Assembly: GCF_947489355.1 (NCBI RefSeq)
Contig: NZ_CANLDD010000014.1
Location: 28,790-92,789 of the forward strand
Source: an uncultured Microbulbifer sp.
GTDB taxonomy: Bacteria > Pseudomonadota > Gammaproteobacteria > Pseudomonadales > Cellvibrionaceae
Direction of reading: 5' to 3'
Length of the DNA stretch: 64,000 nucleotides
How positions within the stretch are numbered: position 1 is the first letter of the stretch; each line of letters begins with the position of its first letter. A program made the translations under genes and the position numbers. The notes under the pieces were generated by a model. That model was not told the DNA's origin, made no database searches, and was given only the letters and a program-made list of their open reading frames with translations. Shown piece after piece: positions 48,059 through 63,915 of the stretch.

Positions 48059-48171
48059 ATAAATATTGATTTAACAGTTTAGAGAATATTGAAGCACCTC
48101 TATCCAATGAATACCGGGTAGGCTTCTTAGGTGCTGCTGCAATTGGAATGCGGGTGATTGCAATTACATAA
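48059..48171 (+). pseudogene. Decayed RiPP precursor peptide paralogue
   Basis: Read from the DNA. The frame starting at 48062 gives NIDLTV; after a one-base loss at about 48079 the next frame gives LENIEAPLSNEYRVG then FLGAAAIGMRVIAIT and a TAA stop (48169-48171). This parallels the intact precursor at 63787-63915: NLDLSLEMLE/EAP leader and a Gly/Ala/Ile core ending AIT. TTAGG lies at the position of the ribosome site, but the start codon position reads ATA. With both the start and the frame damaged it should be inactive, unless the frameshift is a sequencing error. Confidence 0.7.
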
Positions 48172-48635
48172 TCCTAATGCTTCGGACTGTTTTGAAGGTT
48201 AGAGGCCTGAATTTACAAGGTTTGGGTCACGGGGGTCGAGCTAATCGTATGTCTAGGTGAATACGAAGTAGGAAAAGTATCTCTTTACTTGCCCACTTTC
48301 GTGGAAAGTCGAACGCTCGTACAGAAGAGCTGTCCGAGGTGTCGAGTTCCTATTGCTACGTAAATTATTAGCCCAATAATTTATGTAATAATAGGGATGG
48401 CTGAACTGCGTGTTATTCCTTAATCCTGAGAAATGCGCTAATTTTGACTTTCCAGAAAGTTAAAGTTGAAACAGTGTGGGCGGTTGATTTTTTGAGGATC
48501 TTTGCTGCAATTTAATATTTAGGGTGCTTGAATTTCTGATTTTTTTATTCTGTGGCAGAAGCTTTGGTGGCTTGAGTTGCTATTTCAACTGAGGAATTTA
48601 GGTTTAACTGTCATGTTTGTAGTGGATAGCTAAAA
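48172..48635. other. Upstream region of the RiPP operon
   Basis: About 460 bp with no gene recognised. It contains a small AAATTATT/AATAATTT hairpin near 48360-48380 and presumably the operon promoter. No clear -35/-10 pair was assigned. Confidence 0.45.
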
Positions 48636-50654
48636 ATGTTTAAGTCTGTTGGTCTTTTTCGATTGAGATTAGTTGGGCGACATGTAGAGGGGGCAAGTTA
48701 CGACTTGGATGATGCCCGTTTGGCAAGCGCCCTAGAAGGAGTCGGCTTGGCCGCCAAGCTCTACAGGGGGCGCCCCGAGGGGCGGGTGCGAGACATTGCC
48801 AGACAACTTATACGTATGCGCACAGATATCTTGTTGATGTGGGTGGCTTTGGATTCTTTAATGCCGGCATTGCGTTTGTGTGAGGCACTCTTGGCATTCC
48901 GCCCGAATATCCGTATTTACTGGTGGGGAGAGGATACCGACAGCTCCGAGGTCAAAGAGCACGCTAGGAATATTGCGACCCTTATTCCGGCTCCAGTGCC
49001 AGAGCAGGTGCTGCCCATGTTACAGGAACTTGGCTTCCTTTCGACTGAGCGTAAGCTACCGGCAGTTTTACCCTCCCCATACATGTCGGGTGTTGTTCCC
49101 TCCGCCGAGGAGGCCATTCGGCTAGGCCTGACGGCTGATGTCCCGGCTGATGTCCTTAACAACGAAGTTACTTGGCTAAGAAACGCCAGGCTAGACAAGC
49201 AGTCCACAATCCCGGTCGATGCCAAAATCTGCTCCGCCGAATCATTGCATAACTTGATACAGGTACTTTCCGGGCTGCCTTGTAGCTATATCCTTCAGGT
49301 TGATATCCAGGCGTTGGTAGGTATCGGGGAAGACCAGCTGCCTGCCGAAGGCTTGAGCAAAATCCGGGTGTCTGGTGAAGAAGGGCAAGTGCCGGATCGG
49401 ATACAAAAAAAAGCCAACAAACTCGGTATCACAATTGAATTTTTTGAGTCCAAGGAAGAGCTTAGCCAGAAAGCGATGCGCTATGCCAACAATGGCATTT
49501 TTGCCTTGCATACCGGGGTTTATACAGATTTGAATCAGATGCCTGGGATTTATCATATCGAAGTCCCGCTGCACATGGACATGCAGAAAAGGCAAGCCGC
49601 CTATCAGTGGGCGGGGGCTAACATGGCGCTACGCAGCGCGGCGGTTGTCTTTGGTGATACAGATCTGGCGCTTGAACACATAACAAATCTGCAGCCGCCA
49701 GTATGCCAAGAGACCAGCGGATGGCCAAAGCATACTTATGCGTTATCCCTAGGTGAAAATGGTGATGCCAATGCAATATTCGACGGTAACCCAGCAAATA
49801 GCAAACAGCTTCGCTACGTTCCCTACCGTGAATTTGACTTCGCTGATACCGTCGAGGGTTGCAGCACAGTTGTGACAATGAAGACTGCCGAGGATGTCGC
49901 TGCATTCGAGCGGAATCTAGCGCAATTCCATAGTAAGGGTGAAATCACTCTGGCCCATCCCAACAGGCCAGTGTCGATCGAGAACAGCTGCCGCTGGCTT
50001 CGCTATGGCAATTGCCGGGTGTCCTTGCTACGCCGCTTGTCAGTGGGCGAAGACATGAATATCAAGGCATGCAGGGACGCGGGTACGATAGGCACAACAC
50101 AGGATACCTACGACCAGCTTATTACCAAGGTCAAGCAGCAACAGCAAATCGAGGAAGTTCAGCGTAACTGTACTTCTTGCCCGGTCAGGGACGACTGTAG
50201 CCACTGCATCCACCTTCCAAATGCATGGGCCGGTCGCTACTGCGAGATACGCAAAACCTATGGAAAAACTGCCCAGTTTTTTGAAATGGCGGCCTTCCCT
50301 TACTTGATAGCTCACTTGCTACACAACAATAGTGACCCGATTGTGGCAAAGGTGTCCGATGAGGGGTTGCCCTCACGGCATTACAAAGGTGAAGTCGGTG
50401 AGACTCGGCAAGGAGCTAGACCTACGCTGGTGACAGTGCTCGACCAACATTTTTCCTGGTGGCGTGGTAGCCGCAAGATAATTAGGCTGAGCGAGCCGCT
50501 GATGACGATGACCGAAGCGTGGTGGAACGGTGCCTCAGAACAACAAATAGCGCAGGAGTTGAGCGCCAAGTTCGGAGTGGACTCGAAGATAGCGCAGGAA
50601 AGCCTATCCAAGGGGCTGGAAAAACTGCGCAGTGAAGGGGTGACACATGGATAA
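48636..50654 (+). CDS. RiPP maturation protein: B12-binding-like fold, SPASM-like cysteines, PqqD-like C-terminus
   Basis: A 672-residue protein without a family I can name. Residues 1-130 look like a Rossmann domain similar to the N-terminal domain of B12-dependent radical SAM proteins (RMRTDILLMWVALDSLMPAL, FRPNIRIYWWGEDTD). The middle part shows no CxxxCxxC radical-SAM motif. Eight cysteines then cluster (452, 460, 479, 512, 515, 521, 524, 536), including NCTSCPVRDDCSHC, in SPASM-like spacing for auxiliary Fe-S clusters. The last 80 residues (EPLMTMTEAWWNGASEQQIA, SKGLEKLRSEGV) resemble a PqqD/RRE winged helix that binds leader peptides. I infer the precursor-recognition scaffold of the pathway. 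It overlaps the methyltransferase gene by 8 bp. Confidence 0.55.
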   Translation: MFKSVGLFRLRLVGRHVEGASYDLDDARLASALEGVGLAAKLYRGRPEGRVRDIARQLIRMRTDILLMWVALDSLMPALRLCEALLAFRPNIRIYWWGEDTDSSEVKEHARNIATLIPAPVPEQVLPMLQELGFLSTERKLPAVLPSPYMSGVVPSAEEAIRLGLTADVPADVLNNEVTWLRNARLDKQSTIPVDAKICSAESLHNLIQVLSGLPCSYILQVDIQALVGIGEDQLPAEGLSKIRVSGEEGQVPDRIQKKANKLGITIEFFESKEELSQKAMRYANNGIFALHTGVYTDLNQMPGIYHIEVPLHMDMQKRQAAYQWAGANMALRSAAVVFGDTDLALEHITNLQPPVCQETSGWPKHTYALSLGENGDANAIFDGNPANSKQLRYVPYREFDFADTVEGCSTVVTMKTAEDVAAFERNLAQFHSKGEITLAHPNRPVSIENSCRWLRYGNCRVSLLRRLSVGEDMNIKACRDAGTIGTTQDTYDQLITKVKQQQQIEEVQRNCTSCPVRDDCSHCIHLPNAWAGRYCEIRKTYGKTAQFFEMAAFPYLIAHLLHNNSDPIVAKVSDEGLPSRHYKGEVGETRQGARPTLVTVLDQHFSWWRGSRKIIRLSEPLMTMTEAWWNGASEQQIAQELSAKFGVDSKIAQESLSKGLEKLRSEGVTHG

Positions 50655-51474
50655 CCGCTGTCTCCCTCCTGCCGATCCTTATCAACCACATTTTCACGGT
50701 TTTTTCCGCAAGCTTCGGGAGCTGGATATCTTTGATGATACTCCGGGCTGCGAAGACATGTATGGCGCCGAACATGCGGCATTTTATGACCTGTTTGCGG
50801 CTGACTATGTCGGTGACATACCGTTGTTCGAGCGCTACTTACCTTCTGCCGGAGGGGCACGGGTTTTAGACCTGGGATGTGGCTCGGGACGGATAGGTTT
50901 TCCGTTGGCCAACAAGGGGCACTTTGTTGACGGTCTTGAGCTTTCTCAAGGCATGCTGCAGTTGGCCGAGAGGCGCCTGCACAAGGAACCTGCCGATGTG
51001 CAATCAAGGCTGCGCTTCATCCAGAAAGACATGAGCGATTTCGACTTAGGGAGCCAGTACGACCTAATCGTCATTGGGGCAACAAGTATTAGCCTGTTGT
51101 TGCTGCCGGAGCAACGTCAAAATTTACTGGAATGTGCGTATTACCACCTCAAGCCCGGCAGTCATCTTATTTTTGACATTCTTAACCATAGCAAGAATAC
51201 CTGGCATAGCGATGTCTGGTCGAAGGAGACTGATGATGGCATGGAAGTCGCGATAGTTTCCCAGGAATTCTATCCTGAGCGGGGTGTTTTTACCTTCAAC
51301 ATGCTGCGGGAGTCCATAGATTGGGATGGGAATACCAGGCGAACTCTGGGAACCAGCACTAAGGCTATGCTGATGCAGGATGAGATTCTGACCGCTTTGC
51401 ATACCGCCAATCTGAAAGTGGTCGAGCAATTCGAGCACCTAGAAAGTCAGTTTTTTGTTGCTACAAAGAAGTGA
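50647..51474 (+). CDS. SAM-dependent methyltransferase (candidate peptide N-methyltransferase)
   Basis: A 275-residue class I methyltransferase starting at ATG 50647 behind AAGGGG. Motif I is VLDLGCGSGRIGFPL (residues 73-87), motif II VDGLELSQGMLQLAE, motif IV YDLIVIGATSISLLLLPEQR, and post-I HLKPGSHLIFDIL. The N-terminal 55 residues (GFFRKLRELDIFDDTPGCED) are specific. In daptide pathways a methyltransferase dimethylates the new C-terminal amine made by the aminotransferase; its position between the scaffold gene and the M50 protease/aminotransferase genes makes that role plausible here. It overlaps both neighbours (8 bp and 4 bp). Confidence 0.75.
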   Translation: MDNRCLPPADPYQPHFHGFFRKLRELDIFDDTPGCEDMYGAEHAAFYDLFAADYVGDIPLFERYLPSAGGARVLDLGCGSGRIGFPLANKGHFVDGLELSQGMLQLAERRLHKEPADVQSRLRFIQKDMSDFDLGSQYDLIVIGATSISLLLLPEQRQNLLECAYYHLKPGSHLIFDILNHSKNTWHSDVWSKETDDGMEVAIVSQEFYPERGVFTFNMLRESIDWDGNTRRTLGTSTKAMLMQDEILTALHTANLKVVEQFEHLESQFFVATKK

Positions 51475-52697
51475 GGAAAATAACCATTTCATCAAGTAAA
51501 CCAAAAGTTAAACAGGGCGTTATTATCGAGCCCGCTGCGGGTGAGCACCGTATTGTCCACGATCCAGAAAACCGAGGCTATTTTAGGTTGGGGATACGCG
51601 AGGCTGATTTCTTGGGGACCCTCGACGGCAACGCCTCCAGGGAGGCACTTGCCAAGCGGACGGCATTCTCCACGCAGCAGGTGGAATTCATGCTGAGCTG
51701 GCTTGCAGACCGGGGACTACTGGAAGGAAGTCAACCTAAGGCAGCCACAACGCAAAGCAAGTCCGGCTTGCCAAAGTTGCTGTCATTCCTGTTCAGCTCG
51801 GAGAGCTGGCGGTGGCATTTGGTAAATCCGGACAAGTTTTTGGATCGCAACATAGGTGCTGTCCATGCTGTGTTTTCCAAGGCAGCATTGCTAAGCCACT
51901 TGCTCATATTCCTCGCCCCTGCCATCTACTTCCTTTGGTCGCCCAAAGACGTGCTGGATACTTTCAGCCATATCGACATTGAGCTGTCATGGAAGCAAGG
52001 GCTAATCGTCTACCTTGCCATACTATTGACGATAGCCCTACACGAATTTGCCCATGCTATTACCTGCAAGCACTTTGGTGGCAAGGTGGAAAAAATAGCG
52101 GTCAAGCTTCTGTACTTACAGCCTGTAGTCTACTGCGATGTCAGTGACAGCTGGCGGTTCAGAGAAACCAGGGAGAAAATCGCCGTCGCTGCAGCCGGTA
52201 TTTTCCTGCAGCTCGAGATATCCGCTATTGCCTTTGTGCTTTTTGTTGCAACTGGTTGGGTGGCACTTTATTTCTATATGGTCTTCAACCTGATAATTGC
52301 CCTGCTCAACTTATTCCCGCTCATTAAATTGGATGGCTACTGGATAATGGTTCACGCAATGGATGAGCCAAACCTGATGCAAAAAGGGTTGCAGGCCGTC
52401 GATCGGCAGGTGCGAAAGCTATTGCGTGTGCCTGTACCCGATAATACGCTTATCGCCTCGGATAGTAACAACTACTGGAAAATTTTGATCTTCGGCCTTG
52501 GGCATTGCCTGGCTGTCCCCTGCTTCTGGATACTGGGCTTGTCGGCAATCTACCGTTATGTGTCGAAGATCAACGAGCAAGTCGCCTTGGTATTGCTCTC
52601 TGCTTTTGCATTGCTGCTTCTCTATAAGGCGTTCAGGTCGCTTTTGGATTACATCATTTCTTTGGATATTATAAACAAAATAAAAGGAACGTTATGA
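51471..52697 (+). CDS. M50 family membrane metalloprotease with PqqD-like N-terminal domain
   Basis: A 408-residue integral membrane protein starting at GTG 51471 (overlaps the previous stop). Residues 20-95 form a PqqD-like winged helix (HDPENRGYFRLGIREADFLG, TLDGNASREALAKR). Then come membrane segments with the zinc motif LHEFAHAITCKHFGG (HExxH, His191-His195) and the third ligand in LIKLDGYWIMVHAMDEPN (Asp288). This is the site-2-protease layout seen in RiPP clusters including daptides, where the protease is thought to cut or process the leader at the membrane. Its start and end both overlap neighbouring genes, indicating strict co-translation. Confidence 0.85.
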   Translation: MRKITISSSKPKVKQGVIIEPAAGEHRIVHDPENRGYFRLGIREADFLGTLDGNASREALAKRTAFSTQQVEFMLSWLADRGLLEGSQPKAATTQSKSGLPKLLSFLFSSESWRWHLVNPDKFLDRNIGAVHAVFSKAALLSHLLIFLAPAIYFLWSPKDVLDTFSHIDIELSWKQGLIVYLAILLTIALHEFAHAITCKHFGGKVEKIAVKLLYLQPVVYCDVSDSWRFRETREKIAVAAAGIFLQLEISAIAFVLFVATGWVALYFYMVFNLIIALLNLFPLIKLDGYWIMVHAMDEPNLMQKGLQAVDRQVRKLLRVPVPDNTLIASDSNNYWKILIFGLGHCLAVPCFWILGLSAIYRYVSKINEQVALVLLSAFALLLLYKAFRSLLDYIISLDIINKIKGTL

Positions 52698-53941
52698 GTG
52701 CGCTCTGGTACCCATATGCCTGCCCCAATACCGAGCCTTCATTGAAGCTGGTACGTGGTGACGGTGTCTACGTAGTCGACAGTCAAGGTCGCGAGTATAT
52801 TAATGGGGCGGGAGGTCTGTGGAACATCACTCTCGGGCTCAACAATCGTGAGCTTGCTTCACGCATGACCGCGCAACTGGAACTAATGGCCTACGGTACC
52901 CTGTTTAACTCTAGCCACCCCCCTGCGCAGCAACTCGCAGAAAGGCTGGTGGAGCTAAGCAACGGTTTGATGGAGAAAGTTTACCTTTCTACGACGGGCT
53001 CTTCTGCAGTCGAAGTGGCGATACGGGCGGCCAAGCTGTCACAGCGAGCAAGGGGTAACGACGAAAAAAAAGAGGTGATCAGTTTCGATAAATCTTACCA
53101 TGGCTGCTCTCTGATGAATCTTTCAGCCAGTGGCCTGAAACATGCCGACCTGATGCGCTGGGAAGATATCCTGCCCGGTTTCCACCTGATACCATCCCCT
53201 GACGAAGAGGGGCGTTCCCTAGATGCATTGTCCACCCTGCTCGAAGCCAGGAGGGAGCACATCGCCTGTTTGGTTATGGAGCCTATATTGGGCTCGGCCG
53301 GTCTTCTGGTGCCCTCAAAGCAATATTGCGAGCAACTTGGCAATCTGTGTAAAGAGCATGAGGTGCTCTTGATTGCTGATGAGGTGGCTACCGGAGGCGG
53401 CCGCTGCGGCGCTATGTTCGCTTCTGGTCTCCTGGGCTTGGAGCCAGATATCATCACACTATCCAAAGCACTGAACTCCGGCTATTACCCACTCGGAGCC
53501 ACCTTGTTCAAGCGCCATGTCGTGGAGCCTATCGAGAAGGCAGGAGCACCGCTTCTTTATGGTTCCACCCAAGATGGCAACCCTGTAGCCTGTGCAGCCG
53601 CCCTAGCTACCCTCGACTACCTCGAAAGCCACGATTTGTACAACCGGGCAGTCAGCCTTGGTGGGATGATCCGACGCGAGCTTGAGGGCTTACTGGGAAG
53701 CTCGGCCGTCAAGGAGATACGGGGTTTGGGAATTATGCTCGGTATCGAACTGGCACACCAGAACGGCACCCCTTTTACCCTTAAGGAAGTTATAGCCGTC
53801 CGAGCGCAATGCCAAGAAGAGGGCCTGCTGGTATATCACTATGATTCTGGCCTGAGCTTGTTTCCCCCGATGACCCTTTCCGACGAGGAAGCAGAAAACC
53901 TGCTGGATATCCTCAAGTCGGTCCTATGCAGGGTTTTGTGA
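52694..53941 (+). CDS. Class III PLP-dependent aminotransferase (candidate peptide C-terminal aminotransferase)
   Basis: A 415-residue enzyme starting at ATG 52694 behind AAGGAA. Features: INGAGGLWNITLGLNN, phosphate site LSTTGSSAVEVAIRAAKL, cofactor Asp229 in LLIADEVATGGGRCG and Schiff-base Lys258 in ITLSKALNSGYYPLGATL. Class III omega-aminotransferases aminate ketones, and in daptide biosynthesis one converts the ketone left by oxidative decarboxylation of the C-terminal Thr into an amine. The same job is inferred here from the neighbouring dehydrogenase, methyltransferase and the Thr-ending precursor. It is distinct from the putrescine-type aminotransferase at 11201. Confidence 0.85.
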   Translation: MSALWYPYACPNTEPSLKLVRGDGVYVVDSQGREYINGAGGLWNITLGLNNRELASRMTAQLELMAYGTLFNSSHPPAQQLAERLVELSNGLMEKVYLSTTGSSAVEVAIRAAKLSQRARGNDEKKEVISFDKSYHGCSLMNLSASGLKHADLMRWEDILPGFHLIPSPDEEGRSLDALSTLLEARREHIACLVMEPILGSAGLLVPSKQYCEQLGNLCKEHEVLLIADEVATGGGRCGAMFASGLLGLEPDIITLSKALNSGYYPLGATLFKRHVVEPIEKAGAPLLYGSTQDGNPVACAAALATLDYLESHDLYNRAVSLGGMIRRELEGLLGSSAVKEIRGLGIMLGIELAHQNGTPFTLKEVIAVRAQCQEEGLLVYHYDSGLSLFPPMTLSDEEAENLLDILKSVLCRVL

Positions 53942-53989
53942 TGAGGCCCCATGGTTTTTGCGTTGAAGCTGCCGAGAGGATGGGTTGAA

Positions 53990-54640
53990 ATGAGCAATAT
54001 TATCCGCGTTTTATGGCAACCCAACAGAACGCTGTCCCGCTTCGCGTGCGGTGAGATTTCGGTTATCCCCTTATTTGTTCTGGTGCTGCTGGTCGACCTT
54101 ATGGTAGCTATCTCACTCATGCCATACATGAAGGAATCCATCTCCCGGGCGGTCACAGATAGCGGCCAGGGGGCAATGGGTTACGAGTCAATCGTCCTCA
54201 GTATTTCAGTCATTACCGCGACTGTAACGCCAATCCTGATCTTAGCGTTTGTTGCAATTTTAATGCTGTTGCTGGTGATGATTTTCGATGGCAAGACTTC
54301 TTACAGCTCGATATTCGGCATGTTGTTGGCGGCCTCCATTCCAGCGCTCATCGCCAGGGCTGGCAGGGGGGGGGCTTATGTTGCTAGGCTGACCGATAAC
54401 CCCAGTCAAGGGGTGACTAGCCTCGGGTACTATGTACCGGAATTTGGTGATGGGCACTGGAATCAGTTGTTAAACGGTGTCGATATCCTTGACCTGTGGA
54501 CATTTGTCCTTGTTGTGTTTGGGTTGCATGTCGTCACTGACCTGAAACGGGCGCCCTCTTACGGTATTGCCCTTTTTATTTGGGGAGGGCTGCAACTAGT
54601 TTACTTCCGCGCCCTTATGTTGACGGAGGCTCCCCTATGA
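53990..54640 (+). CDS. YIP1-family-like membrane protein
   Basis: A 216-residue protein with about five membrane helices. ATG 53990 (GAGAGGA upstream) begins SNIIRVLWQPNRTLSRFACG, the conserved start of YIP1-domain proteins (about one Pro-Asn or basic patch, then helices). Hydrophobic segments: IPLFVLVLLVDLMVAISLMP, ATVTPILILAFVAILMLLLV and DLWTFVLVVFGLHVV. The function is unknown; a second similar protein is encoded at 57688, so both may help the exporters or confer self-protection. Its stop overlaps the dehydrogenase start (ATGA). Confidence 0.7.
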   Translation: MSNIIRVLWQPNRTLSRFACGEISVIPLFVLVLLVDLMVAISLMPYMKESISRAVTDSGQGAMGYESIVLSISVITATVTPILILAFVAILMLLLVMIFDGKTSYSSIFGMLLAASIPALIARAGRGGAYVARLTDNPSQGVTSLGYYVPEFGDGHWNQLLNGVDILDLWTFVLVVFGLHVVTDLKRAPSYGIALFIWGGLQLVYFRALMLTEAPL

Positions 54641-55407
54641 GCCAGCCGATTTTTTCACTTCAAGGCATGGTGCTACTGATCACCGGCGGCGGTTCGGGAA
54701 TTGGCCGTGCCACGGCCAAAGCGATGGCTGCAAGCGGGGCAAAGGTTGCCTTGACTGAGTTGCCGGGGAGGGGGCGTTTGGCCGAGGAAGTCGTGGCTGA
54801 GATAGCTCAAGGAGGTGGTGAGGCGCTGGCTTTGTCGATGGACGTAAGAGATACCTTGACCATAGACAACGTCGTCGACCAGGTTATCGAACACTTTGGC
54901 CGCCTGGATGTATTGGTTAACAATGCCGGCACTCAGATCTTGAAGCCCGCCCTTGAGCTGGAAGAACATGAGTTTGACGAGGTGATGGCCGTAAACCTGA
55001 AAGGTGCCTTTATGTGTGCCCAGGCCGCTGGTCGTTTCATGGTAGAAGAAGGTCGGGGATGCATCATCAATGTCGCCTCCCAGCATGGCGTCGTGGGCAA
55101 CAAATTGCGGGCAGCGTATTGTGCTAGCAAAGGCGGGCTGGTCAACTTGACGCGTGCCCTAGCAGTGGAGTGGGCCAAGTACGGCATACGGGTCAATGCC
55201 GTTAGTCCTACCTTTGTCAGCAATGAGAGTAATCAACAGATTTTCGACTCCCTTGAGTTTCAGGAGGATTTACAGCGCAATCTGCCGCTTGGCCGTGGGG
55301 CCCACCCCGAGGAAATCGCCGTTGGCATTGTCTATCTGGCGTCCGCCAGTGCCAACATGGTAACCGGGCACAATCTAATAATTGACGGAGGATGGACAGC
55401 CCGGTAA
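54637..55407 (+). CDS. Short-chain dehydrogenase/reductase (candidate peptide C-terminal oxidase)
   Basis: A 256-residue classical SDR. Cofactor site ITGGGSGIGRATAKA (residues 15-29), NNAG, catalytic Ser148 in INVASQHG and Tyr161/Lys165 in AAYCASKGG, and the C-terminal GHNLIIDGGWTAR. Members oxidise alcohols with NAD(P). Oxidation of the Thr beta-hydroxyl would give a beta-keto acid that loses CO2, the same chemistry as threonine dehydrogenase. I infer that it supplies the ketone for the aminotransferase, the step done by an iron alcohol-dehydrogenase-like enzyme in known daptides. It is coupled to the preceding gene through ATGA. Confidence 0.85.
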   Translation: MSQPIFSLQGMVLLITGGGSGIGRATAKAMAASGAKVALTELPGRGRLAEEVVAEIAQGGGEALALSMDVRDTLTIDNVVDQVIEHFGRLDVLVNNAGTQILKPALELEEHEFDEVMAVNLKGAFMCAQAAGRFMVEEGRGCIINVASQHGVVGNKLRAAYCASKGGLVNLTRALAVEWAKYGIRVNAVSPTFVSNESNQQIFDSLEFQEDLQRNLPLGRGAHPEEIAVGIVYLASASANMVTGHNLIIDGGWTAR

Positions 55408-56331: not shown

Positions 56332-56335
56332 AGCT

Positions 56336-57613
56336 ATGAATAAAGTGTTTACCATCGCGTGGAGGGAATACCGTGTCAGGGTGACCTCGCCTCTCTATGT
56401 CGCCCTGACCTTGGTCATGGTCGCCCTGTTGGTCGGCGTCCCGATACTCGTCTCTATGGTGGTGGCCTCAGATGCCCTGGAGCCTGTAGATCTTTATGTT
56501 GTTGACAAGGGGGGCTGGGTGTCCTCCCAGTTGCAGGAGCAAAGAAACTCTGCTAAGGCAGACCAGGTGCCGCTATTAAACTTACGCCTTCGAGAAGCTA
56601 GCCCAGTGCGTTTTGAGACCTTGTTAAAGCAAGCCGAAGTTGGCGAGATAGCAGGGATATTGTTGCTGGAAGGTCAAGGGGCTGAAGATTTCAGTGCGAC
56701 GTTTTTCAGCAGTAGTGCCGTCAGCTTGGCACAGTTGAAGGCCGAGCTACAGCAACCTCTGAACCAGGTTGTGCGCAGAGCGGCATTGGCCGAACACAAT
56801 TTAGAACCTGCAGCATTACAGCAGTTTCTGTCTCCCCTACAAGTACATTATACCCACCTTGGGAGAAGTGATGGGGCTGAGAAAAGCAACGGACTTGTAT
56901 TTATCGCCGGTGTTTTTAATCTGTTAATGTATTCAGCCATCTTACTTTATGCCAGTATGACGTTCCAGGGGGTGTTGGAAGAAAAGAGTTCTAGGGTCAT
57001 GGAAGTTATGGTCGCTGCGGTGAAGCCCGTCTATCTCATCACTGGCAAGATCATCGGGATTGGTTGTGTCGGCCTAACTCAAATGGCCATCTGGGTGCTG
57101 CCCTATGCGGTGCTAATCAGCCTGCCGTTGGGGCAGGTGACCGATGCCCTCAACAGCCTAGAGTGGTATGTTTTTGCCTTAATGTTCACCTATTTTTTGC
57201 TGGGTTATTTCCTTTATAGCTCTATTTATGCCGCAGTAGCCTCGACTATCAGCCGAATCGAGGACAGCCAGGCTGTCATGGCTCCGCTTACTATTACCGT
57301 GCTGTTAGGCTATATGGTCGCGCTGTTTGCTTTCTTTAACCCTGAAGGAGATATGGCCACAGCGGCTTCAATTTTCCCGTTGTTTTCACCAACAGTTATG
57401 TTGATGCGTTTGATCTTGGGTGATCCGCCGACTTGGCAGATTGCACTTTCTTTGCTGTTCTTGTTGATAGCAACCTTGTTGGTGGTATGGGCCTCCGGGT
57501 GGATCTATGGTAAGGGAGTGCTGCGCTACGGCGCTCGTCTGAGGTTGCGGAGTCTGCTCGCGAGTAGCGAGGGAAACGCCGCTGACGGTAAGCAAGTCAG
57601 GATTGAAAGCTAG
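56336..57613 (+). CDS. ABC-2 type permease (NatB-like)
   Basis: A 425-residue membrane protein starting at ATG 56336 (MNKVFTIAWREYRVRVTSPL, the usual ABC-2 start). One N-terminal helix (VALTLVMVALLVGVPILVSM), a periplasmic domain of about 150 residues, then several helices including LVFIAGVFNLLMYSAILLYA with the family segment FQGVLEEKSSRVMEVMVAAV, and IWVLPYAVLISLPLGQ. It pairs with the ATPase just upstream. Substrates of NatAB-like systems include antimicrobial peptides and sodium; a role in peptide export or resistance is inferred. Confidence 0.9.
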   Translation: MNKVFTIAWREYRVRVTSPLYVALTLVMVALLVGVPILVSMVVASDALEPVDLYVVDKGGWVSSQLQEQRNSAKADQVPLLNLRLREASPVRFETLLKQAEVGEIAGILLLEGQGAEDFSATFFSSSAVSLAQLKAELQQPLNQVVRRAALAEHNLEPAALQQFLSPLQVHYTHLGRSDGAEKSNGLVFIAGVFNLLMYSAILLYASMTFQGVLEEKSSRVMEVMVAAVKPVYLITGKIIGIGCVGLTQMAIWVLPYAVLISLPLGQVTDALNSLEWYVFALMFTYFLLGYFLYSSIYAAVASTISRIEDSQAVMAPLTITVLLGYMVALFAFFNPEGDMATAASIFPLFSPTVMLMRLILGDPPTWQIALSLLFLLIATLLVVWASGWIYGKGVLRYGARLRLRSLLASSEGNAADGKQVRIES

Positions 57614-57687
57614 TTTGCGACATAAGGGCATGGAGCTGATTGTACGCAGGGTGGCGCCGGTCAAAAAAATAAGTAGTGGAAAATAAA

Positions 57688-58422
57688 ATGGAACAGACAC
57701 TTGCCGCACAAAAAGACTTGGCCAAATCACCGACCAAGTTCCAGGCAATTTCAGACATATTCCTAGAACCTAGAAAAGCCCTGGTAGCCGTAAGAGAGAA
57801 CCCTTCCTGGTTCGCCCTGCCATTGGCACTGAATCTGGCAGCGTTCATTGGGTTCACTTTCTGGTATTACACAACTGTCAATGTAGAATGGCTCATCGAC
57901 CACATGCTTGCTCAGCAAGGTGAAATGAGTTCTGAGCAGGCAGAGGCAACACGTCGTTACCTGCAGCCTTCGTTTTTAATGAATAGCGGTATCGTATTTG
58001 GTGGCCTGACAATCCTTTTCTTCAATGCTCTGTTTGCCTTGTACTATCATTTGCTGGCCAAGCTCGGGGGAGAGAACACGCTAGGTATCGGCAACTGGTT
58101 CGCGTTTTCTGTCTGGACGAGTTTCCCGGCAATTATTAACACACTGGGAATGTTCTTTGTCTATTGGCTAGACGGCACTCACCAAATCGACATCAATGAC
58201 TTATTGTTTACCTCTTTTAATAATCTTTTATTCCATTTCCCGTTCGATCATGCGTGGTATTCGTTCATGAATAGCATCCAGTTGACGACGTTTTGGTCGA
58301 TAGGTATGGCGGCATACGGGTATACGCTGTGGACAGGCAGTAAGCTAGGCTGGGGGTGTATCGTTGCTTGCTTCCCCTATACTTTGATCTTCGGGATATG
58401 GGCACTGATCCTGGCGACTTAG
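57688..58422 (+). CDS. YIP1 family membrane protein
   Basis: A 244-residue protein with about five helices. ATG 57688 is used (GGAA seven bases before it); an in-frame GTG at 57676 is also possible. After KSPTKFQAISDIFLEPRKAL it has WFALPLALNLAAFIGFTFWY and GGLTILFFNALFALYYHLLA, matching YIP1-domain proteins better than the first one at 53990. The loop with NTLGIGNWFAFSVWTSFPAI is conserved in the family. Function is unknown. The location between the NatB-like permease and the adaptor suggests a link to export or immunity. Confidence 0.8.
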   Translation: MEQTLAAQKDLAKSPTKFQAISDIFLEPRKALVAVRENPSWFALPLALNLAAFIGFTFWYYTTVNVEWLIDHMLAQQGEMSSEQAEATRRYLQPSFLMNSGIVFGGLTILFFNALFALYYHLLAKLGGENTLGIGNWFAFSVWTSFPAIINTLGMFFVYWLDGTHQIDINDLLFTSFNNLLFHFPFDHAWYSFMNSIQLTTFWSIGMAAYGYTLWTGSKLGWGCIVACFPYTLIFGIWALILAT

Positions 58423-58444: not shown

Positions 58445-59653
58445 ATGAACCGAAAACTCACTCTTGGTATCGCATTGGTTACTTTATTCGTCCTGCTCGG
58501 CACCCAGGCAGGGCTAACCAGGCGACAGGCCGGCATGGAAATGGATATAAAGAGATCAGTACTGACTAGCATTCGGAGCACGATCCTCGCGTCCGGCAAG
58601 CTGGCGTACAAGGAGCAAGTAGAACTTCGCTCGGAGGTTCTGGGTAGGGTTGTCGAAGTGTCCGTCGAGGAGTCTCAGCACGTATCGAAGGGGGATATCG
58701 TACTGCGTATCAACCCGACTCGATACATGAAGGAGGTTGAGCAATATCAAGCGGCGGTGACCCAGAGGAAAATAGCAGTACAGCGGCAGAAGCTGGTTGT
58801 CGAGCAGTTACAGCGGAAGTTGGAGAGGCGGCAGGACCTTTTCAAGCGCAATTTGGTAGGCGAAGAGGCTTACGATGGCATCTTGATGGATCTTAAGTTC
58901 TCGCAGCTTGACTTGCTGGATAAGAAAGCGGCTCTAGTGCAAATGCAAGCGCAGTTAGAGCAGGCAAAGGAAAACCTCGAAAAGACAGTCATACGTGCAC
59001 CTATAAAGGGTATCGTTATCCAAGTCGACGTGAAGGTAGGCGAGTCAGTTATTTCCAGTGCAGCCAATATTCCGGGTTCTGTGCTGATGAGTATCGCCGA
59101 CCCTTCGGAGGTGCTAACCGAGGTTCATGTCGACGAGGCGGATATCGGCAAGATCGCGCTCGGCCAGGAAGCCGATATTTATGTCGTGGCTTTCCCAAAC
59201 AAGCCGTTCCGGGGCAAGGTTAAGTCTATCGCCACAACGGCGACTTCTTGGGAGCGGAAGCAAGGCCTCGGTTTCACTGTCAAGATCCTGCTGGACGACC
59301 TTGAAAGGCGGCTGCTGCGCCCGGGAATTGGTTGCCGGGCTGAAATTTACTATACGTCGAGCGAGGAAACCTTGACTGTACCGATTGGCGCGGTAATGTT
59401 CGACGACGAGAAGCCGGATGGGCAAGCCAGAGGGGAGTCCTCGGAGCTGCTTGGATATATCTTTGTCGACCGTAATGGTATTGCGGAAAAACGGGTAGTG
59501 GTATTAGGCATCTCCAATGATACAGAACAGGAAATCATCGACGGGCTGGAACCTAGGGAGCGTGTTATCGTTGGTCCCTACCGCCACCTCAGACACCTAA
59601 AAGATGGCGAATCTATCCTTCAGCGCGAAGTTAAAACATTGGCCAAGTCATGA
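58445..59653 (+). CDS. Periplasmic adaptor protein (HlyD/MacA family)
   Basis: A 402-residue adaptor with one N-terminal membrane anchor (LTLGIALVTLFVLLGTQAGL). The biotinyl-lipoyl half motifs VELRSEVLGRVVEVSVEESQ and IRAPIKGIVIQVDVKVGESV flank a long coiled coil (residues 90-180, Gln/Lys-rich), as in MacA-like partners. The beta-barrel part holds GQEADIYVVAFPNKPFRGKV. It bridges the MacB-type ATPase/permease encoded downstream to an outer-membrane channel; no TolC-like gene is in the window. It overlaps the next gene (ATGA). Confidence 0.9.
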   Translation: MNRKLTLGIALVTLFVLLGTQAGLTRRQAGMEMDIKRSVLTSIRSTILASGKLAYKEQVELRSEVLGRVVEVSVEESQHVSKGDIVLRINPTRYMKEVEQYQAAVTQRKIAVQRQKLVVEQLQRKLERRQDLFKRNLVGEEAYDGILMDLKFSQLDLLDKKAALVQMQAQLEQAKENLEKTVIRAPIKGIVIQVDVKVGESVISSAANIPGSVLMSIADPSEVLTEVHVDEADIGKIALGQEADIYVVAFPNKPFRGKVKSIATTATSWERKQGLGFTVKILLDDLERRLLRPGIGCRAEIYYTSSEETLTVPIGAVMFDDEKPDGQARGESSELLGYIFVDRNGIAEKRVVVLGISNDTEQEIIDGLEPRERVIVGPYRHLRHLKDGESILQREVKTLAKS

Positions 59654-60375
59654 GCAATACGCTGATCCAGTTCCGTGCTATCACCAAGCAATACCATATG
59701 GGCGACACCCTTGTGCACGCCCTTGCCGGGGTTGATCTGGATATCCTGCGGAACGACTATGTAGCGGTCACCGGCCCTTCTGGGTCGGGTAAGTCGACCT
59801 TGATGAACCTCCTGGGGTGCCTGGATCAACCGACATCGGGGGAGTATTTCCTGTCGGGAAAATTGGTATCGGCTCGCTCCGGCCATGAATTGGCGGTAAT
59901 CAGGAATCGTAAAATTGGCTTTGTGTTTCAGACCTTCAACCTGCTGTCCCGGCATACGGCCCTACAAAATGTTATGCAGCCTTTGGTATATAGGCAGGTC
60001 AAGCTACCCCAGCGACGAGCCATGGCCGAAAAGGCGTTAGAGCGGGTTGGGCTTGGCGGTCGCATGGAGCATTTACCGAACCAAATGTCTGGCGGTCAGC
60101 GACAACGGGTAGCAATTGCACGTGCCCTTGTGGGTAGCCCTTCCCTATTAATTGCTGACGAACCGACAGGCAATCTGGATTCTATTACAACCCAGGAAAT
60201 CATGGGCTTGTTTGCACAGTTGCACAGTGAGGGGAATACCATAGTTATGGTAACCCACGAACTTGAGATAGCGGCGTGCTGTCAACGTACTATACGTCTG
60301 GAGGACGGCAAGGTCATAGCCGACGACCGCCAAGCGCAAGCCGGCTGGGAAATGGGGTTATGTTGTTTAGGCTGA
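59650..60375 (+). CDS. ABC transporter ATP-binding protein (MacB/LolD-like)
   Basis: A 241-residue ATPase of the MacB/LolD group: Walker A VTGPSGSGKSTLMNLLG, Q-loop GFVFQTFNLLSRHTALQNV, signature HLPNQMSGGQRQRVAIARAL, Walker B LLIADEPTGNLDS and H-loop IVMVTHELEIA. It powers the FtsX/MacB-type permease that overlaps it by 16 bp. Together with the adaptor it makes a split MacAB system able to move peptides from the periplasm out of the cell. Confidence 0.93.
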   Translation: MSNTLIQFRAITKQYHMGDTLVHALAGVDLDILRNDYVAVTGPSGSGKSTLMNLLGCLDQPTSGEYFLSGKLVSARSGHELAVIRNRKIGFVFQTFNLLSRHTALQNVMQPLVYRQVKLPQRRAMAEKALERVGLGGRMEHLPNQMSGGQRQRVAIARALVGSPSLLIADEPTGNLDSITTQEIMGLFAQLHSEGNTIVMVTHELEIAACCQRTIRLEDGKVIADDRQAQAGWEMGLCCLG

Positions 60376-61595
60376 GGGAGAGCCTGAGGGCGGCGCTACA
60401 TGCAATACTGAACCAAGGCTTCCGTAGTTTCTTGACGGTGCTGAGTATCGTTATCAGTGTGGCATCCGTCATTACTATTATTGCCTTGATGCAGGGTTTC
60501 GGCGTCCAGCTGTCTGAGCAGTTCAAGGGGTTGGGTACCAATACCCTGACGATCACTCCCTATACGCCGTTCAAAGAGGCGTTGCAAGGGAAAAAGTCGC
60601 GGCTTACCCATGACGACATGATCCAAATCCAACACCGTGTCGACGGTATCAGCCACGCCACCCCGTTGCTCAACATCTCTGCGTTTTTTCAGGGCAAGGT
60701 GCGTTATAAGGCGAGCAACACGCTAACCCAGATTTATGGAACCACCCGCAACTATGAGTCGCTCTATGAGAGCTACCCTCAATATGGGCGTTTCTTTACG
60801 CCGACTGACGATAGGAGCCGGCGGCAAATTTGTGTGATTGGGGCAAAGGTCAGGGACGACCTGGAGCTTCCGGAGAACCCTGTCGGCGAATTTCTGCAAA
60901 TTGGTAGCCAATGGTTCAAGATTGTCGGCGTCATGGAGGAGCGTGGCGAGCTGTTGGGGTTCAATCAGGATGACTATGTTCTGCTGCCATACCGCACGGC
61001 GAGGAGTGCAACAGGTGGGGCTCTTGAAGCCAGCATTGACAGTATCGTGCTAAAAGTAGATGACCTCAACCAATTGCCCTTGGTCAAAGAGCGAGTGCGC
61101 AGAGTACTGCGGATACATCATGGCCTACGAGCCGAGGTCGATGATGACTTTAAGGTTAGCACAGCGGAACAGCTTATGGATTCGGTGTCCTCTATTACCG
61201 ACATGCTAACTATGGTGCTAGGGGGGATTGTTTCTATCTCGCTGTTGGTGGGAGGAATAGGTATTATGAATATCATGCTAGTCTCGGTCGTCGAGCGCAC
61301 TAAGGAAATAGGGATCTGTAAATCTCTTGGGGCGAAGCGCAGCGATATCCTGTTGCAATTCTTGTTGGAGGGGTTCCTGCTGAGCTTCCTGGGGGGGGTA
61401 TTGGGGGTCGCTTTGGGCTTTGGTCTGGCCGAGCTGGTTATTCTGATTGTGCCGGTACTTTCTTCGGTGTCGATCCCATTGTGGGCGGTTTTGCTCTCTG
61501 TCTGGTTTTCAGGTGTGATTGGCATTGTATTTGGCATTATCCCTGCGTCAAAAGCGGCGAATCTAGACCCGATAGAGGCCTTACGCTATGAATAA
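60360..61595 (+). CDS. FtsX/MacB-type ABC permease
   Basis: A 411-residue permease. ATG 60360 lies inside the ATPase gene and begins LFRLRESLRAALHAILNQGF then RSFLTVLSIVISVASVITII, the first cytoplasmic helix and membrane segment of MacB-like permeases; a longer in-frame start at 60276 is not family-like. A periplasmic domain of about 220 residues follows, then the FtsX core (GGIVSISLLVGGIGIMNIML, VSVVERTKEIGICKSLGAKR) and two more helices, ending GIIPASKAANLDPIEALRYE. It is the export channel of the MacAB-like system. Confidence 0.93.
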   Translation: MLFRLRESLRAALHAILNQGFRSFLTVLSIVISVASVITIIALMQGFGVQLSEQFKGLGTNTLTITPYTPFKEALQGKKSRLTHDDMIQIQHRVDGISHATPLLNISAFFQGKVRYKASNTLTQIYGTTRNYESLYESYPQYGRFFTPTDDRSRRQICVIGAKVRDDLELPENPVGEFLQIGSQWFKIVGVMEERGELLGFNQDDYVLLPYRTARSATGGALEASIDSIVLKVDDLNQLPLVKERVRRVLRIHHGLRAEVDDDFKVSTAEQLMDSVSSITDMLTMVLGGIVSISLLVGGIGIMNIMLVSVVERTKEIGICKSLGAKRSDILLQFLLEGFLLSFLGGVLGVALGFGLAELVILIVPVLSSVSIPLWAVLLSVWFSGVIGIVFGIIPASKAANLDPIEALRYE

Positions 61596-61760: not shown

Positions 61761-63062
61761 ATGAATTCGACATTAGAAATAGACCGACATGCAGAACGGC
61801 ATGAGCTGCCCGAGTTGCAAGTGGCAAACGGACACCGTGTCTGCAGCCTGAATACCTCTGTGCGAGAGGTTTCCGCTGAACAGACACTGGCCAAAATTGA
61901 GCCAATATTGGCAGATTTCGGAGTGAGTTCTGTAATCAACATCAGTCTACCTGATGTGGATGCCTGTCCGGTCTACCAGGTCACCCGGGCCGACATGCGC
62001 TCTGACTACTTCAATGCTGGGAAAGGGTTTACCCCTGTAGAGTCCAAAGTCTCCGGCCTGATGGAAGCTATTGAGGTGCAGTGTTTCGAGCGTGCCGATC
62101 CCATGCTGCTGGTGCCCAGATATCCGTTACCCGAGCACTTAAGTCAGTGGTCTCTCGTGTCTGCCGAGCAATTGGTAAACCCTAGGGGACAGTTCCATTG
62201 TGCTGCGCGGGAAAGGCAGGGCGGCCCCTTGGTCAAGGGACACAACTTGAACAAGCAGGAGAGTATTCTGCTCCCGGCCGAGGCGCTATTCCTGGAAGCC
62301 GACGGGATAGTCTACAAGAGTGCATCCCCCAATGGTATCGCCAGCGGTAACTCGGTGGACGAGGCCTCCTGCCATGCCCTATGTGAAATGCTGGAACGCC
62401 ATGCTCTGAACAAGTTTTTCCTCTCCGGTGGGCGCCAAGCAATAGAGCGGGTCCGGCCTCCGGGGGATGCATCGCGGCTCCATCTTTGTCTAGACCAGCT
62501 AGCGGATAAGAATATAAATGCCGAGTTCATACTGATCTCCACTGAGGCAGATGTGGCTGTTTTTATTTGTTTCCTAGATGTGCCGATGGCTGGCGGTAGG
62601 CGCGGAGCCGTGCAAGGTTACGGTGCCCACCATGCCCCCCTGATTGCTATGCACCGTGCCCTGGCGGAGGCGATACAAATCCTGGCACTTTGTCCTGTAT
62701 CTGGTAACCACGACGGCGGCCATGACGGCGAGCATGTGGTGATAACCAGCAAACAGGCCGCCATGTTGGAACCCCATATGATTGCCAAGCAGCGCCATCA
62801 TGATCACCTGATGCTGCAAAATTTGAGGAGCCAGCTACCCTTGGTGGAATTCGAGTACATGGCCCTGTTCGACTTAGCCGACGAGCAAGGGGAAGAACAA
62901 CTGGGTAATGAGTCGTTCCACACTAATCTGGACAAGCTGCTGGTCGGCCTCAGGGTGATGGGTATAGAAAATGTTTACTCGGCGGTCATCAGTCCGGAGT
63001 CGCTGCCTGTCGTGGTGGTCAAGTGTTTTTGCCCTGGGCTAACATGTATCGATGGTTTGTAA
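61761..63062 (+). CDS. YcaO-domain protein
   Basis: A 433-residue member of the YcaO family, ATP-dependent enzymes that activate peptide backbone amides (cyclodehydration, thioamidation, amidine formation). ATP/Mg-binding landmarks: ESKVSGLMEAIEVQCFER (residues 94-111), GNSVDEASCHALCEMLERHA (196-215) with the paired glutamates, and MHRALAEAIQILAL. A Pro-rich C-terminus, typical of azoline-forming enzymes, is absent; it ends in GLTCIDGL after a CFCPGL segment. No E1-like/Ocin-ThiF or TfuA partner is present in the window. It follows the operon after a hairpin and probably also acts on the precursor. Confidence 0.9.
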   Translation: MNSTLEIDRHAERHELPELQVANGHRVCSLNTSVREVSAEQTLAKIEPILADFGVSSVINISLPDVDACPVYQVTRADMRSDYFNAGKGFTPVESKVSGLMEAIEVQCFERADPMLLVPRYPLPEHLSQWSLVSAEQLVNPRGQFHCAARERQGGPLVKGHNLNKQESILLPAEALFLEADGIVYKSASPNGIASGNSVDEASCHALCEMLERHALNKFFLSGGRQAIERVRPPGDASRLHLCLDQLADKNINAEFILISTEADVAVFICFLDVPMAGGRRGAVQGYGAHHAPLIAMHRALAEAIQILALCPVSGNHDGGHDGEHVVITSKQAAMLEPHMIAKQRHHDHLMLQNLRSQLPLVEFEYMALFDLADEQGEEQLGNESFHTNLDKLLVGLRVMGIENVYSAVISPESLPVVVVKCFCPGLTCIDGL

Positions 63063-63112
63063 TAGGAAATATGCAAGCCGTACGACGAGCAGGACAAACG
63101 GGTCTATATTGA

Positions 63113-63352: not shown

Positions 63353-63359
63353 TGATTCT

Positions 63360-63745
63360 TCATACAGCGGGCGCACGTCGGCTCTGCAAGCTTAGAAATC
63401 GATGCATGTTGTATACCAAATTCATCATGCCAACCTTAACCGCAGCGCGCAAAATCTCAATAGTCCGCACGAGCATATCGCTCTGCTCATTTTCTATTGA
63501 CCCAAATACGTGCCTGACTCTAACTCGCGAATTTCGACGGTTCTCTACCGTGTCTCACTTGCTGAGAGACTTACCCCGGCTCCCTTTCTTATGCACATGG
63601 CTGCGGTATCCCATCGTATCAGTGTGAGCTCGCTTTCTTCGCTGTAGTAAGCGCTGTCTGCCTAAACATCCTTGGAAGTGTTGTCACTCAGTAGTTCATG
63701 GAACACTTGGGAATCATGTACTTCGGCAGTCAGTTTAAAAGCTAT
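63360..63745 (-). pseudogene. IS5-family transposase C-terminal relic
   Basis: Reading leftwards: KLTAEVHDSQVFHELLSDNT then SKDV, stop, ADSAYYSEESELTL; after a frameshift MGYRSHVHKKGSRGKSLSK, stop, RVRHVFGSIENEQSDMLVRT, IEILRAAVKVGMMNLVYNMH. This is the second half of an IS5-type transposase DDE domain, with the final catalytic Glu in VFGSIENE, but two stops and a shift break it. It lies directly downstream of the precursor's terminator. Confidence 0.85.
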
Positions 63746-63772
63746 CAAACAGTTAACGTATGTTTGATAGCT
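63736..63772 (-). terminator. Rho-independent terminator of the precursor gene
   Basis: A perfect 12-bp stem (AGCTATCAAACA/TGTTTGATAGCT) with a 9-nt loop at 63740-63772. Read on the minus strand it ends in TTTTAAA. It starts 15 bp after the precursor stop, giving the peptide its own short transcript. Confidence 0.85.
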
Positions 63773-63786
63773 ATCACCTTTTAGGT

Positions 63787-63915
63787 TTAAGTAATCGCAA
63801 CGCCGATAGCCAGACCTACAGCAAAACCAGTTGCAGCGGCAATTACTTTATCAGCATCTACCGGTGCCTCTTGGCATTCAAGCATTTCTAAACTTAAATC
63901 TAAATTTGTGTTCAT
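63787..63915 (-). CDS. RiPP precursor peptide, daptide-like, C-terminal Thr
   Basis: A 42-residue peptide found by reading the DNA. ATG 63915 is chosen because AGGA lies seven bases before it; an ATG two codons upstream (63921) touches that site. Leader: NTNLDLSLEMLECQEAPVDA, acidic with the LE-LE pattern and a Glu-Ala-Pro near residue 17, plus one Cys14. Core: roughly DKVIAAATGFAVG then LAIGVAIT, hydrophobic, Gly/Ala/Val/Ile-rich, likely helical and membrane-active, ending in Thr42. It has no Ser or Cys in the core and only Thr29 and Thr42, so classical azole or lanthionine formation is unlikely. The C-terminal Thr is the expected substrate for dehydrogenase, aminotransferase and methyltransferase. 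Confidence 0.8.
   Translation of the reverse strand: MNTNLDLSLEMLECQEAPVDADKVIAAATGFAVGLAIGVAIT

Follow-up and report, generated by a model that had tools for sequence, protein, structure and literature searches.

A probable daptide-type RiPP cluster in a lineage of Pseudomonadota, with a DapB that resembles a cobalamin-type radical-SAM/SPASM protein

Does a gammaproteobacterium carry an enzyme set of the kind with which daptides exchange the acidic end of a peptide for a basic amine? The question is raised by the window, the whole 64,000-nucleotide stretch of DNA analyzed here from an uncultured Microbulbifer sp., whose end is also the end of contig C14 and in which a preliminary description had placed a daptide-like locus at 48059..63915. 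A 16S search of the assembly gave no match. The genes were found in place, but the compact operon begins at 48636 rather than 48059; among the ORFs listed from 48059 to 48635, a single one, of 43 aa and with just its end in this interval, exceeds 30 aa, and none resembles the daptide system. Between 48636 and 63062 the plus strand encodes, in order, dapB, dapM, dapP, dapD, a Yip1-like protein, a short-chain dehydrogenase (SDR), transporters and a YcaO. As previously described, the enzyme genes overlap tightly: dapB and dapM share 8 bp (50647-50654), dapM and dapP 4 bp (51471-51474), and dapP and dapD 4 bp (52694-52697), while the Yip1 and SDR genes have an ATGA overlap if the latter begins at 54637. 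Pfam and NCBIfam matches identified the methyltransferase, M50 protease, class III aminotransferase, SDR, ABC proteins, YcaO, HlyD adaptor, and MacB-type ATPase and permease. The inclusion rule given for the class in PMC10036551 is a DapB (RRE protein) plus a PF00465 or PF13561 oxidoreductase. Here, one operon encodes a DapB RRE and a PF13561 SDR, and the class trio of class III aminotransferase, SAM methyltransferase and M50 protease is present in full.

The profile search that had been proposed as a check returned daptide models as the best NCBIfam matches of DapM (50647..51474, +), a SAM methyltransferase with a predicted role in N-methylation, DapP (51471..52697, +), an M50 intramembrane protease predicted to remove the leader, and DapD (52694..53941, +), a class III aminotransferase predicted to turn a ketone into an amine. 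All three fall below the NCBI cut-offs, with 161 bits against 175 for NF041820 (daptide_MTase), 234.9 against 300 for NF041824 (daptide_HExxH) and 324.8 against 450 for NF041821 (daptide_amino), where bioA is the next model at 293.8 bits. The Bacillota control L044 exceeds the cut-offs of NF041820, NF041821 and NF041824 (259, 532 and 448 bits, respectively), and the DapP of Patulibacter is likewise under that of NF041824 (274.9 of 300). A PqqD-like domain had been assigned to the M50 protein. The protease was confirmed, but Pfam found no PqqD in DapP, whose N-terminal part is covered only by the NCBI daptide metalloprotease model; a PqqD-like leader-binding domain occurs instead in DapB, which was absent from the earlier gene list. 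DapP residues H191, E192, H195 and D288 are invariant in 35/35 aligned sequences. DapP also worked as a seed for finding relatives (149 found, 120 listed, 34 placed in alignment A2). Of the 204 DapP-seeded loci that were confirmed, 80 were kept; when searched for four partner genes at E 1e-8, 21 had at least two, 5 had one and 54 had none. Precursor and tree work drew on 12 of those 21.

The gene after dapD encodes a Yip1/YknW-like membrane protein (53951..54640, +; NF052650 YknW_fam, 76 bits, cut-off 110) for which transport or immunity is a guess, and which has homologs at the equivalent place in L041, L042 and L043. The SDR gene, dapC (54637..55407, +; PF13561, 225 bits; frame open from 54580, ATG at 54637), encodes the predicted oxidative decarboxylase of the C-terminal Thr. 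It is followed by a DrrA-like ABC transporter ATPase (55438..56331, +; Pfam, NCBIfam) with homologs in Bacillota daptide loci, an ABC-2 type permease (56321..57613, +; PF12698, 160 bits), a second Yip1/YknW-like protein (57676..58422, +; NF052650, 30.5 bits, cut-off 110), a HlyD/MacA-like periplasmic adaptor (58445..59653, +; PF16576, PF13437; TIGR01730, 153 bits, cut-off 94.9), a MacB-type ABC ATPase (59650..60375, +; PF00005; best models MacB and LolD, both under cut-offs) and a MacB-type permease (60360..61595, +; PF12704, PF02687; frame open from 60276, ATG at 60360). MacAB pumps are completed by TolC; the adaptor and MacB-type parts are in the operon, and no TolC gene was seen within it. 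The last gene encodes a dapY-like YcaO of 433 aa (61761..63062, +; PF02624, 144 bits).

The small hydrophobic Thr-ending peptide gene was also where it had been reported: dapA (63787..63921, minus strand) encodes a 44-aa precursor with the leader ...LEMLECQEAP and the predicted core VDADKVIAAATGFAVGLAIGVAIT. Its sole NCBIfam matches at E<=0.1, in a scan that omitted the first codon, are two daptide precursor models, both weak and under cut-off (0.0085 and 0.014). Contig C98 of the same genome carries four further precursor relatives, all ending in Thr, and the genome's precursors combine L(E/D)xQEAP with a final Thr in 5/5 cases. A hairpin-forming element without assigned strand (63740..63774; pattern search, RNA fold z-score -3.7) lies after the precursor gene. 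A pattern search of the genome (G000; <=3 mismatches) found two further copies after two C98 precursors and no others; C98 is linked to the window by shared precursors and hairpins only. Thr endings among leader-motif ORFs are more than chance: across 18 stretches (the window, C98 and relatives, 3 of them with no motif match), 59 of 60 small ORFs with the motif end in Thr, compared to 168 of 2071 small ORFs overall, in a count that left the last residue free, used a motif written after the precursors had been viewed, and included homologous relatives, so that the 60 are not independent events.

These genes suggest the following route. Each precursor that ends in Thr would be bound at its leader by DapB, which would hand the precursor's tail to the SDR. 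Going by the reconstituted actinobacterial pathway, the SDR would oxidatively decarboxylate the terminal Thr to aminoacetone (-46 Da). On the same analogy, the aminotransferase would yield diaminopropane (-45 Da) and the methyltransferase the dimethylamine Dmp (-17 Da), and the M50 protease would release the peptide. The predicted product chemistry is conversion of a C-terminal Thr to an amine. Less surely, the YcaO would close the monomethylated amine onto the preceding amide to form dimethylimidazoline, Diz (-49 Da; -48.97). The DrrA-type and MacAB-type transporters may serve in peptide export or producer protection.

The YcaO had been presented as an addition to the daptide enzyme set. It is indeed present (PF02624), but it is not new as such, since PMC12338566 describes YcaO-made C-terminal imidazolines in Actinomycetota daptides. 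Like TfDapY and SaDapY, which form C-terminal dimethylimidazoline, the window's YcaO is encoded with dapBCDMP; those two have PxPxP (PMC12338566), whereas ours ends in ...CPGLTCIDGL. The motif is missing from the last 40 residues of all 25 members of its group (the protein and 24 further close relatives), which says little alone because 0/45 more distant YcaOs have it either. In a quick tree (SH-aLRT only; short P0140, P0146 and P0147 excluded) the window's YcaO did not group with two Streptomyces plasmid daptide YcaOs, which stand at the end of a very long branch and are not the Tf and Sa proteins themselves; an imidazoline is therefore not a necessary product. Among NCBIfam models, the protein scores highest with the McrA thioamidation family (94.8 bits, vs. 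70.1 for SagD), the opposite preference to that of the Streptomyces daptide YcaO in L156 (128.6 for SagD vs. 54), and its best PDB match is MJ1094 (E 7.5e-14). It may thus make another change, whether a thioamide in the backbone or, at another place in the core, an azoline or amidine, and leave dimethylated Dmp at the C-terminus. We regard this as a substantial possibility but not the favored one. TfuA-assisted thioamidation was rejected because the genome has no TfuA gene, and the predicted cores contain no Cys. Moreover, the YcaO group co-occurs with DapP relatives, and the pathway would offer a free amine beside a backbone amide as substrate. Among the 80 DapP-type loci, the only YcaO match is that of Massilia.

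The helper DapB has been described as "functionally unannotated", and "SPASM" does not occur in the main texts of PMC10036551 and PMC12338566. In the window, dapB (48636..50654, +) encodes 672 aa comprising an N-terminal B12-binding-like Rossmann domain, a barrel-like middle, a SPASM-like block of eight cysteines (C452-C536) and a C-terminal RRE (about 590-672); neither Pfam nor NCBIfam gave a family for it at E<=0.001. In the structural model, the Rossmann and barrel arrangement is like that of the cobalamin-dependent radical SAM enzymes TokK, OxsB and CysS over 221-256 aligned residues. No Foldseek match reaches E 0.001, residues 1-137 alone score equally with CheY-like and cobalamin chains, and the Pfam B12-binding family is matched by only 2 of 12 DapBs (best 0.043). 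Unlike TokK, OxsB and CysS, DapB has an added SPASM-like block and RRE and lacks CxxxCxxC (0/12 DapBs). The eight cysteines are invariant in 12/12; in the window they are C452, C460, C479 and C512-x2-C515-x5-C521-x2-C524-x11-C536, as compared to a SPASM definition of Cx2-4Cx5Cx2-3Cx14-18C plus remote cysteines (PMC5682303), so the last gap is short. The SPASM model matched 5/11 DapB halves (best 0.0053), the window's own not among them, and Pfam matches of the DapBs included no SPASM family. When the Cys block was modeled together with the RRE, the structural matches were to RREs and not to any SPASM structure, which is no evidence against SPASM as AlphaFold places no clusters. Streptomyces MpaB, about half as long, aligns with the SPASM-RRE half of DapB and has no invariant cysteine in four sequences. 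NF041823 (MpaB RRE protein, cut-off 150) scored 382 bits with the L154 MpaB and 30 with the L044 DapB, but matched neither the window's DapB at E<=0.001 nor its C-terminal half at E<=1. DapB-seeded searches of genome and viral contigs (two aligned DapBs) and of plasmids confirmed no relatives, and the protein database gave one beyond the window's own (P0002); these negatives are weak because L041 holds a 40% relative.

DapB thus looks like a cobalamin-type radical-SAM/SPASM protein in which CxxxCxxC is missing. To judge by fold, motifs and profiles, the likely origin of this leader-binding protein is a radical-SAM enzyme whose catalytic motif has disappeared, presumably a cobalamin-dependent radical-SAM/SPASM peptide enzyme whose SAM-cluster cysteines were lost and which would now serve as a scaffold. 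The invariance of the eight cysteines implies that they are still under selection, and the cobalamin-type domain is retained, as would be expected if DapB still had a cobalamin and/or Fe-S redox role in decarboxylation. We consider such a role unlikely given that CxxxCxxC is missing throughout, that MpaB, with no invariant cysteine, and MpaC are enough for the ketone in E. coli, and that TfDapBC is active with NAD+ and no metal added (PMC10036551, PMC12338566). Taking scaffold and YcaO together, we judge evenly balanced the joint reading in which DapB/MpaB is a dead, reused cobalamin/SPASM/RRE enzyme that would have lost first its SAM cluster (Pseudomonadota and Bacillota, eight SPASM-like cysteines kept) and then, in the actinobacterial MpaB, the front half together with the cysteines, and would now feed peptide tails to an NAD-dependent dehydrogenase, and in which a second, unrelated YcaO lineage would have been recruited to the Gram-negative daptide C-terminus.

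The neighborhood survey suggested in the preliminary description found the window's gene order, along with Thr-ending peptides, in Massilia, Sphingomonas and Duganella; homologous loci without Thr-ending precursors, which were to count against the idea, were not what the three fuller Pseudomonadota loci showed. In micrococcin/thiocillin, oxidative decarboxylation is performed by a homolog of Bacillota DapC (PMC10036551), and a pathway ending at a C-terminal ketone or alcohol, with the aminotransferase acting elsewhere, is conceivable but very improbable here, where dapD and dapM are part of the run of overlapping genes, keep their order in the three other genera and both match daptide models best. 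DapD forms a 100/100 clade with the aminotransferases of the other four Pseudomonadota loci. A grouping of aminotransferase and dehydrogenase with primary-metabolism enzymes had also been named as refuting; DapD is weakly tied (62/81) to the daptide aminotransferases of Bacillota and Actinobacteria, whereas the SDR falls in a single clade with Bacillota daptide dehydrogenases (95/90, starred; eight loci, 44-47% identity), apart from 21 other SDRs, of which its own genome supplied 14. The top plasmid match of the SDR, from Priestia, was rejected as a daptide member, its neighbors being dehydrogenase and sugar-type genes. Although SDRs and class III aminotransferases are common, and this DapP occurs in just one of 293 near genomes, the window's own, the reading that primary-metabolism enzymes came together by chance next to a small ORF unrelated to them was rejected on the conserved gene order, the precursors and the SDR tree.

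The Bacillota daptide loci (Paenibacillus, Saccharibacillus, Ruminiclostridium; PMC10036551) are like the window in further respects, with a long DapB (747-838 aa in seven) that has the same eight cysteines and an RRE-type end, a DapP that lacks the C-terminal extension found in Streptomyces MpaP, Thr-ending precursors and, in most, a DrrA-type ABC pair. They differ in gene order, in DapM, DapD and DapP (26-37% identical) and in YcaO, with no match at E 1e-8 in 17 Bacillota loci having at least two partner genes. Actinomycetota daptides (mpa, tfDap and saDap, PMC10036551 and PMC12338566; four Streptomyces plasmid clusters) follow the same logic, with a YcaO in some clusters and a similar leader motif, ELExMEAP. 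Their oxidase is an Fe-ADH family protein (PF00465; PMC10036551, PMC12338566), so the different oxidase family claimed for the window holds against them, but it is not new, SDR-type oxidases being reported from Bacillota daptides (PMC10036551). The best matches to daptide models, the SDR clade and the Thr-ending precursors of other genera support the original idea, and the locus is very probably a cluster for daptide-type RiPPs belonging to a Pseudomonadota lineage, with the proposed DapB-SDR-aminotransferase-methyltransferase-protease route.

The mapping of daptides has centered on Actinomycetota and Bacillota, and the 2023 count included a single cluster from Pseudomonadota (PMC10036551). 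New here are a Pseudomonadota lineage outside the NCBI cut-offs, a YcaO that stands apart from two Streptomyces daptide YcaOs in the tree, and the likeness of DapB to a cobalamin-type radical-SAM/SPASM protein. The lineage (Massilia, Duganella, Sphingomonas and the present genome) would represent a third enzyme set for C-terminal amination, in which an SDR replaces the actinobacterial ADH. Its separate YcaO raises the question of whether C-terminal ring closure evolved twice or a new modification is made here, and the likely origin of DapB would account for the helper's existence and make its role testable (clusters, cobalamin, cysteines). If these readings hold, a known peptide class gains a third branch, and an unexplained helper protein a likely origin.

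The daptide-type locus comprises thirteen plus-strand genes between 48636 and 63062, several of which overlap by 4-8 bp. The first half consists of dapB (RRE-bearing, predicted leader-binding protein), dapM (methyltransferase), dapP (M50 protease), dapD (class III aminotransferase), a Yip1/YknW-like membrane protein (53951-54640) and a short-chain dehydrogenase (SDR; DapC). It is followed by a DrrA-like ABC ATPase, an ABC-2 permease, a second Yip1/YknW-like protein (57676-58422), an HlyD/MacA-like adaptor, the ATPase and the permease of a MacB-type transporter and, last, a YcaO. In Bacillus subtilis, YknW is part of a system guarding against a secreted toxin and, by analogy, the two Yip1/YknW-like proteins may therefore be immunity proteins.

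The precursor gene, at 63787-63921 on the minus strand, encodes a peptide of 44 aa whose leader closes with LEMLECQEAP and whose hydrophobic tail terminates in AIT. Four more precursor ORFs, all ending in AIT and two of them identical, were found on a second small contig of the same genome (C98; 5,856 bases). The identical peptides are encoded by genes at C98:5272-5406 and 5526-5660, in a 254-base tandem unit. A 35-base hairpin-forming element occurs 3′ of three of the five precursor genes (window 63740-63774; C98:5421-5455 and 5675-5709), and a pattern search allowing up to 3 mismatches detected no further copy in the 4.79-Mb genome. The window corresponds to bases 28790-92789 of contig C14 and stops at the end of that contig in this 264-contig assembly; the repeats may account for the assembly break at this point, and we infer that C14 and C98 are adjacent in the genome. 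When small ORFs from 18 stretches were filtered by leader motif, with no requirement on the last residue, 59 of 60 ended in Thr, versus 168 of 2071 small ORFs overall. The sole exception, from Massilia sp. ST3 (L041:4281-4439, plus strand), lies directly 5′ of a YcaO gene; it carries the leader motif (KVEELETMAAP) together with a hydrophobic segment, and its lysine-rich tail lacks a terminal Thr. It is possibly a leader decoy, a regulator or another kind of precursor.

The preliminary description had proposed a daptide-like system on the basis of much of this gene set and a Thr-ending peptide. Daptide models were the best NCBIfam matches for DapM, DapP and DapD alike, but all three scored under the curated cut-offs (161/175, 234.9/300 and 324.8/450 bits, respectively). 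The only NCBIfam matches of the four distinct precursors were likewise daptide precursor models, weak (E 0.0003-0.02) and below cut-off. The locus is therefore daptide-like and beyond the reach of present curated models. All three enzyme cut-offs were passed by a Paenibacillus solani (Bacillota) locus; a Streptomyces DapP scored above its cut-off and that of the actinobacterium Patulibacter below.

A protein database search with DapP listed 44 proteins of 364-408 aa, the window's own included, with scores between 232 and 908 bits; the next listed match of that size reached 166 bits. Named organisms included Colwellia and Massilia. When 84,980 genomes were scanned with two patterns, 204 loci were confirmed, of which 80 were kept. 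At least two of DapB, DapM, DapD and SDR (E 1e-8) were present in 21 of these, 17 from Bacillota and four from Pseudomonadota, the latter in Massilia ST3, Sphingomonas kyeonggiensis, Duganella Leaf126 and, as an incomplete locus, a MAG; 54 had none. Gene order and Thr-ending peptides recur together: Massilia, Sphingomonas and Duganella share the B-M-P-D-Yip1-SDR order with the window and have four, four and two Thr-ending precursors, respectively. In Paenibacillus xylaniclasticus (L052:9935-12986, plus strand) a DapP-like M50 protease adjoins a MacB-type ABC gene; DapB, DapM, DapD and SDR were not matched in that stretch, which is perhaps a different RiPP system.

Phylogenetic analysis of 34 SDRs placed the 13 daptide SDRs in a single clade (95/90) with Pseudomonadota (100/99) and Bacillota (99/97) branches, outside which fell 14 SDRs from the window's own genome and 7 plasmid SDRs. 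Grouping with unrelated primary-metabolism enzymes, which would have argued against a daptide system, is thus not seen for the SDR. The aminotransferase may likewise fall with its daptide counterparts: among 23 sequences the five from Pseudomonadota formed a 100/100 clade, but the union of all daptide aminotransferases reached only 62/81.

Among the 293 nearest genomes, its own included, DapP of this type was found only in the window's own (906 bits); the next-best match scored 96 bits, within a 724-aa frame. The cluster was likely acquired horizontally. Transposase genes occur near both cluster ends, 1.8-3.5 kb upstream of dapB (Mutator-type, 45173-46036, plus strand, matching its 379-position profile over positions 15-251 only; HTH_Tnp_1-type, 46530-46871, minus strand) and on C98 (DDE_Tnp_1, C98:2447-3415, minus strand). 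A region judged by eye to encode surface polysaccharide functions (chain-length regulator, flippase, pyruvyl- and glycosyltransferases, epimerase/dehydratase) spans 28443-44872 and contains transposase pieces at 29810-30547 (HTH_33) and 37432-37992 (DDE_3).

In the proposed pathway, DapB would bind the leader, the SDR would oxidize the Thr alcohol with loss of CO2 to give a ketone, DapD would aminate the ketone and DapM would methylate the amine. YcaO may then close a ring, after which DapP would cleave behind the EAP motif and the transporters would export the peptide. The chemical steps are assigned by analogy with those demonstrated for actinobacterial homologues or analogues (PMC10036551, PMC12338566). 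Product masses were calculated for the four distinct cores. For the window's core, released behind EAP, the predicted [M+H]+ values are 2243.27 without modification, 2197.26 for the ketone, which would react with aminooxy reagents, 2198.29 for the primary amine, 2226.32 for Dmp and 2194.30 for the dimethylimidazoline; thioamidation, an O-to-S exchange, would add about 16 Da.

Together with its 24 closest relatives (232-423 bits; next, 86 bits), the YcaO makes up a compact group, and 7 of the 24 lie on a contig equal in size to one carrying a DapP relative, versus none of 45 more distant YcaOs. Actinobacterial DapY proteins carry PxPxP and were shown to close the monomethylated amine to a dimethylimidazoline (PMC12338566). 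PxPxP was absent near the C-terminal end of all 25 group members and of the 45 distant YcaOs; the group ends in -GL in 21 of 25 (otherwise -GI, -NL or -DL), with a conserved VVK(C/T/V/A/S)F segment lying a few residues earlier. One of two YcaOs from Streptomyces daptide plasmid clusters has the PxPxP end, and both lie on a very long branch apart from the window group, in a tree whose actinobacterial daptide YcaOs were these two. Therefore, either ring closure comes from two YcaO lineages or the YcaO has another activity here. The best-scoring model was McrA thioamidation for the window YcaO, as opposed to SagD for the one Streptomyces daptide YcaO scanned. Since no TfuA gene was found in the window's genome and the pathway would yield a free amine, we favor ring closure, at about an even chance.

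Taken as a whole, the locus is a genuine daptide-type cluster that is well conserved and belongs to a Pseudomonadota type, of which a single cluster was counted in 2023 (PMC10036551). The expected chemistry is mostly known already; what specialists would not have expected are the proposed origin of DapB, as a reused radical-SAM/SPASM-type protein, and the putative second YcaO lineage.
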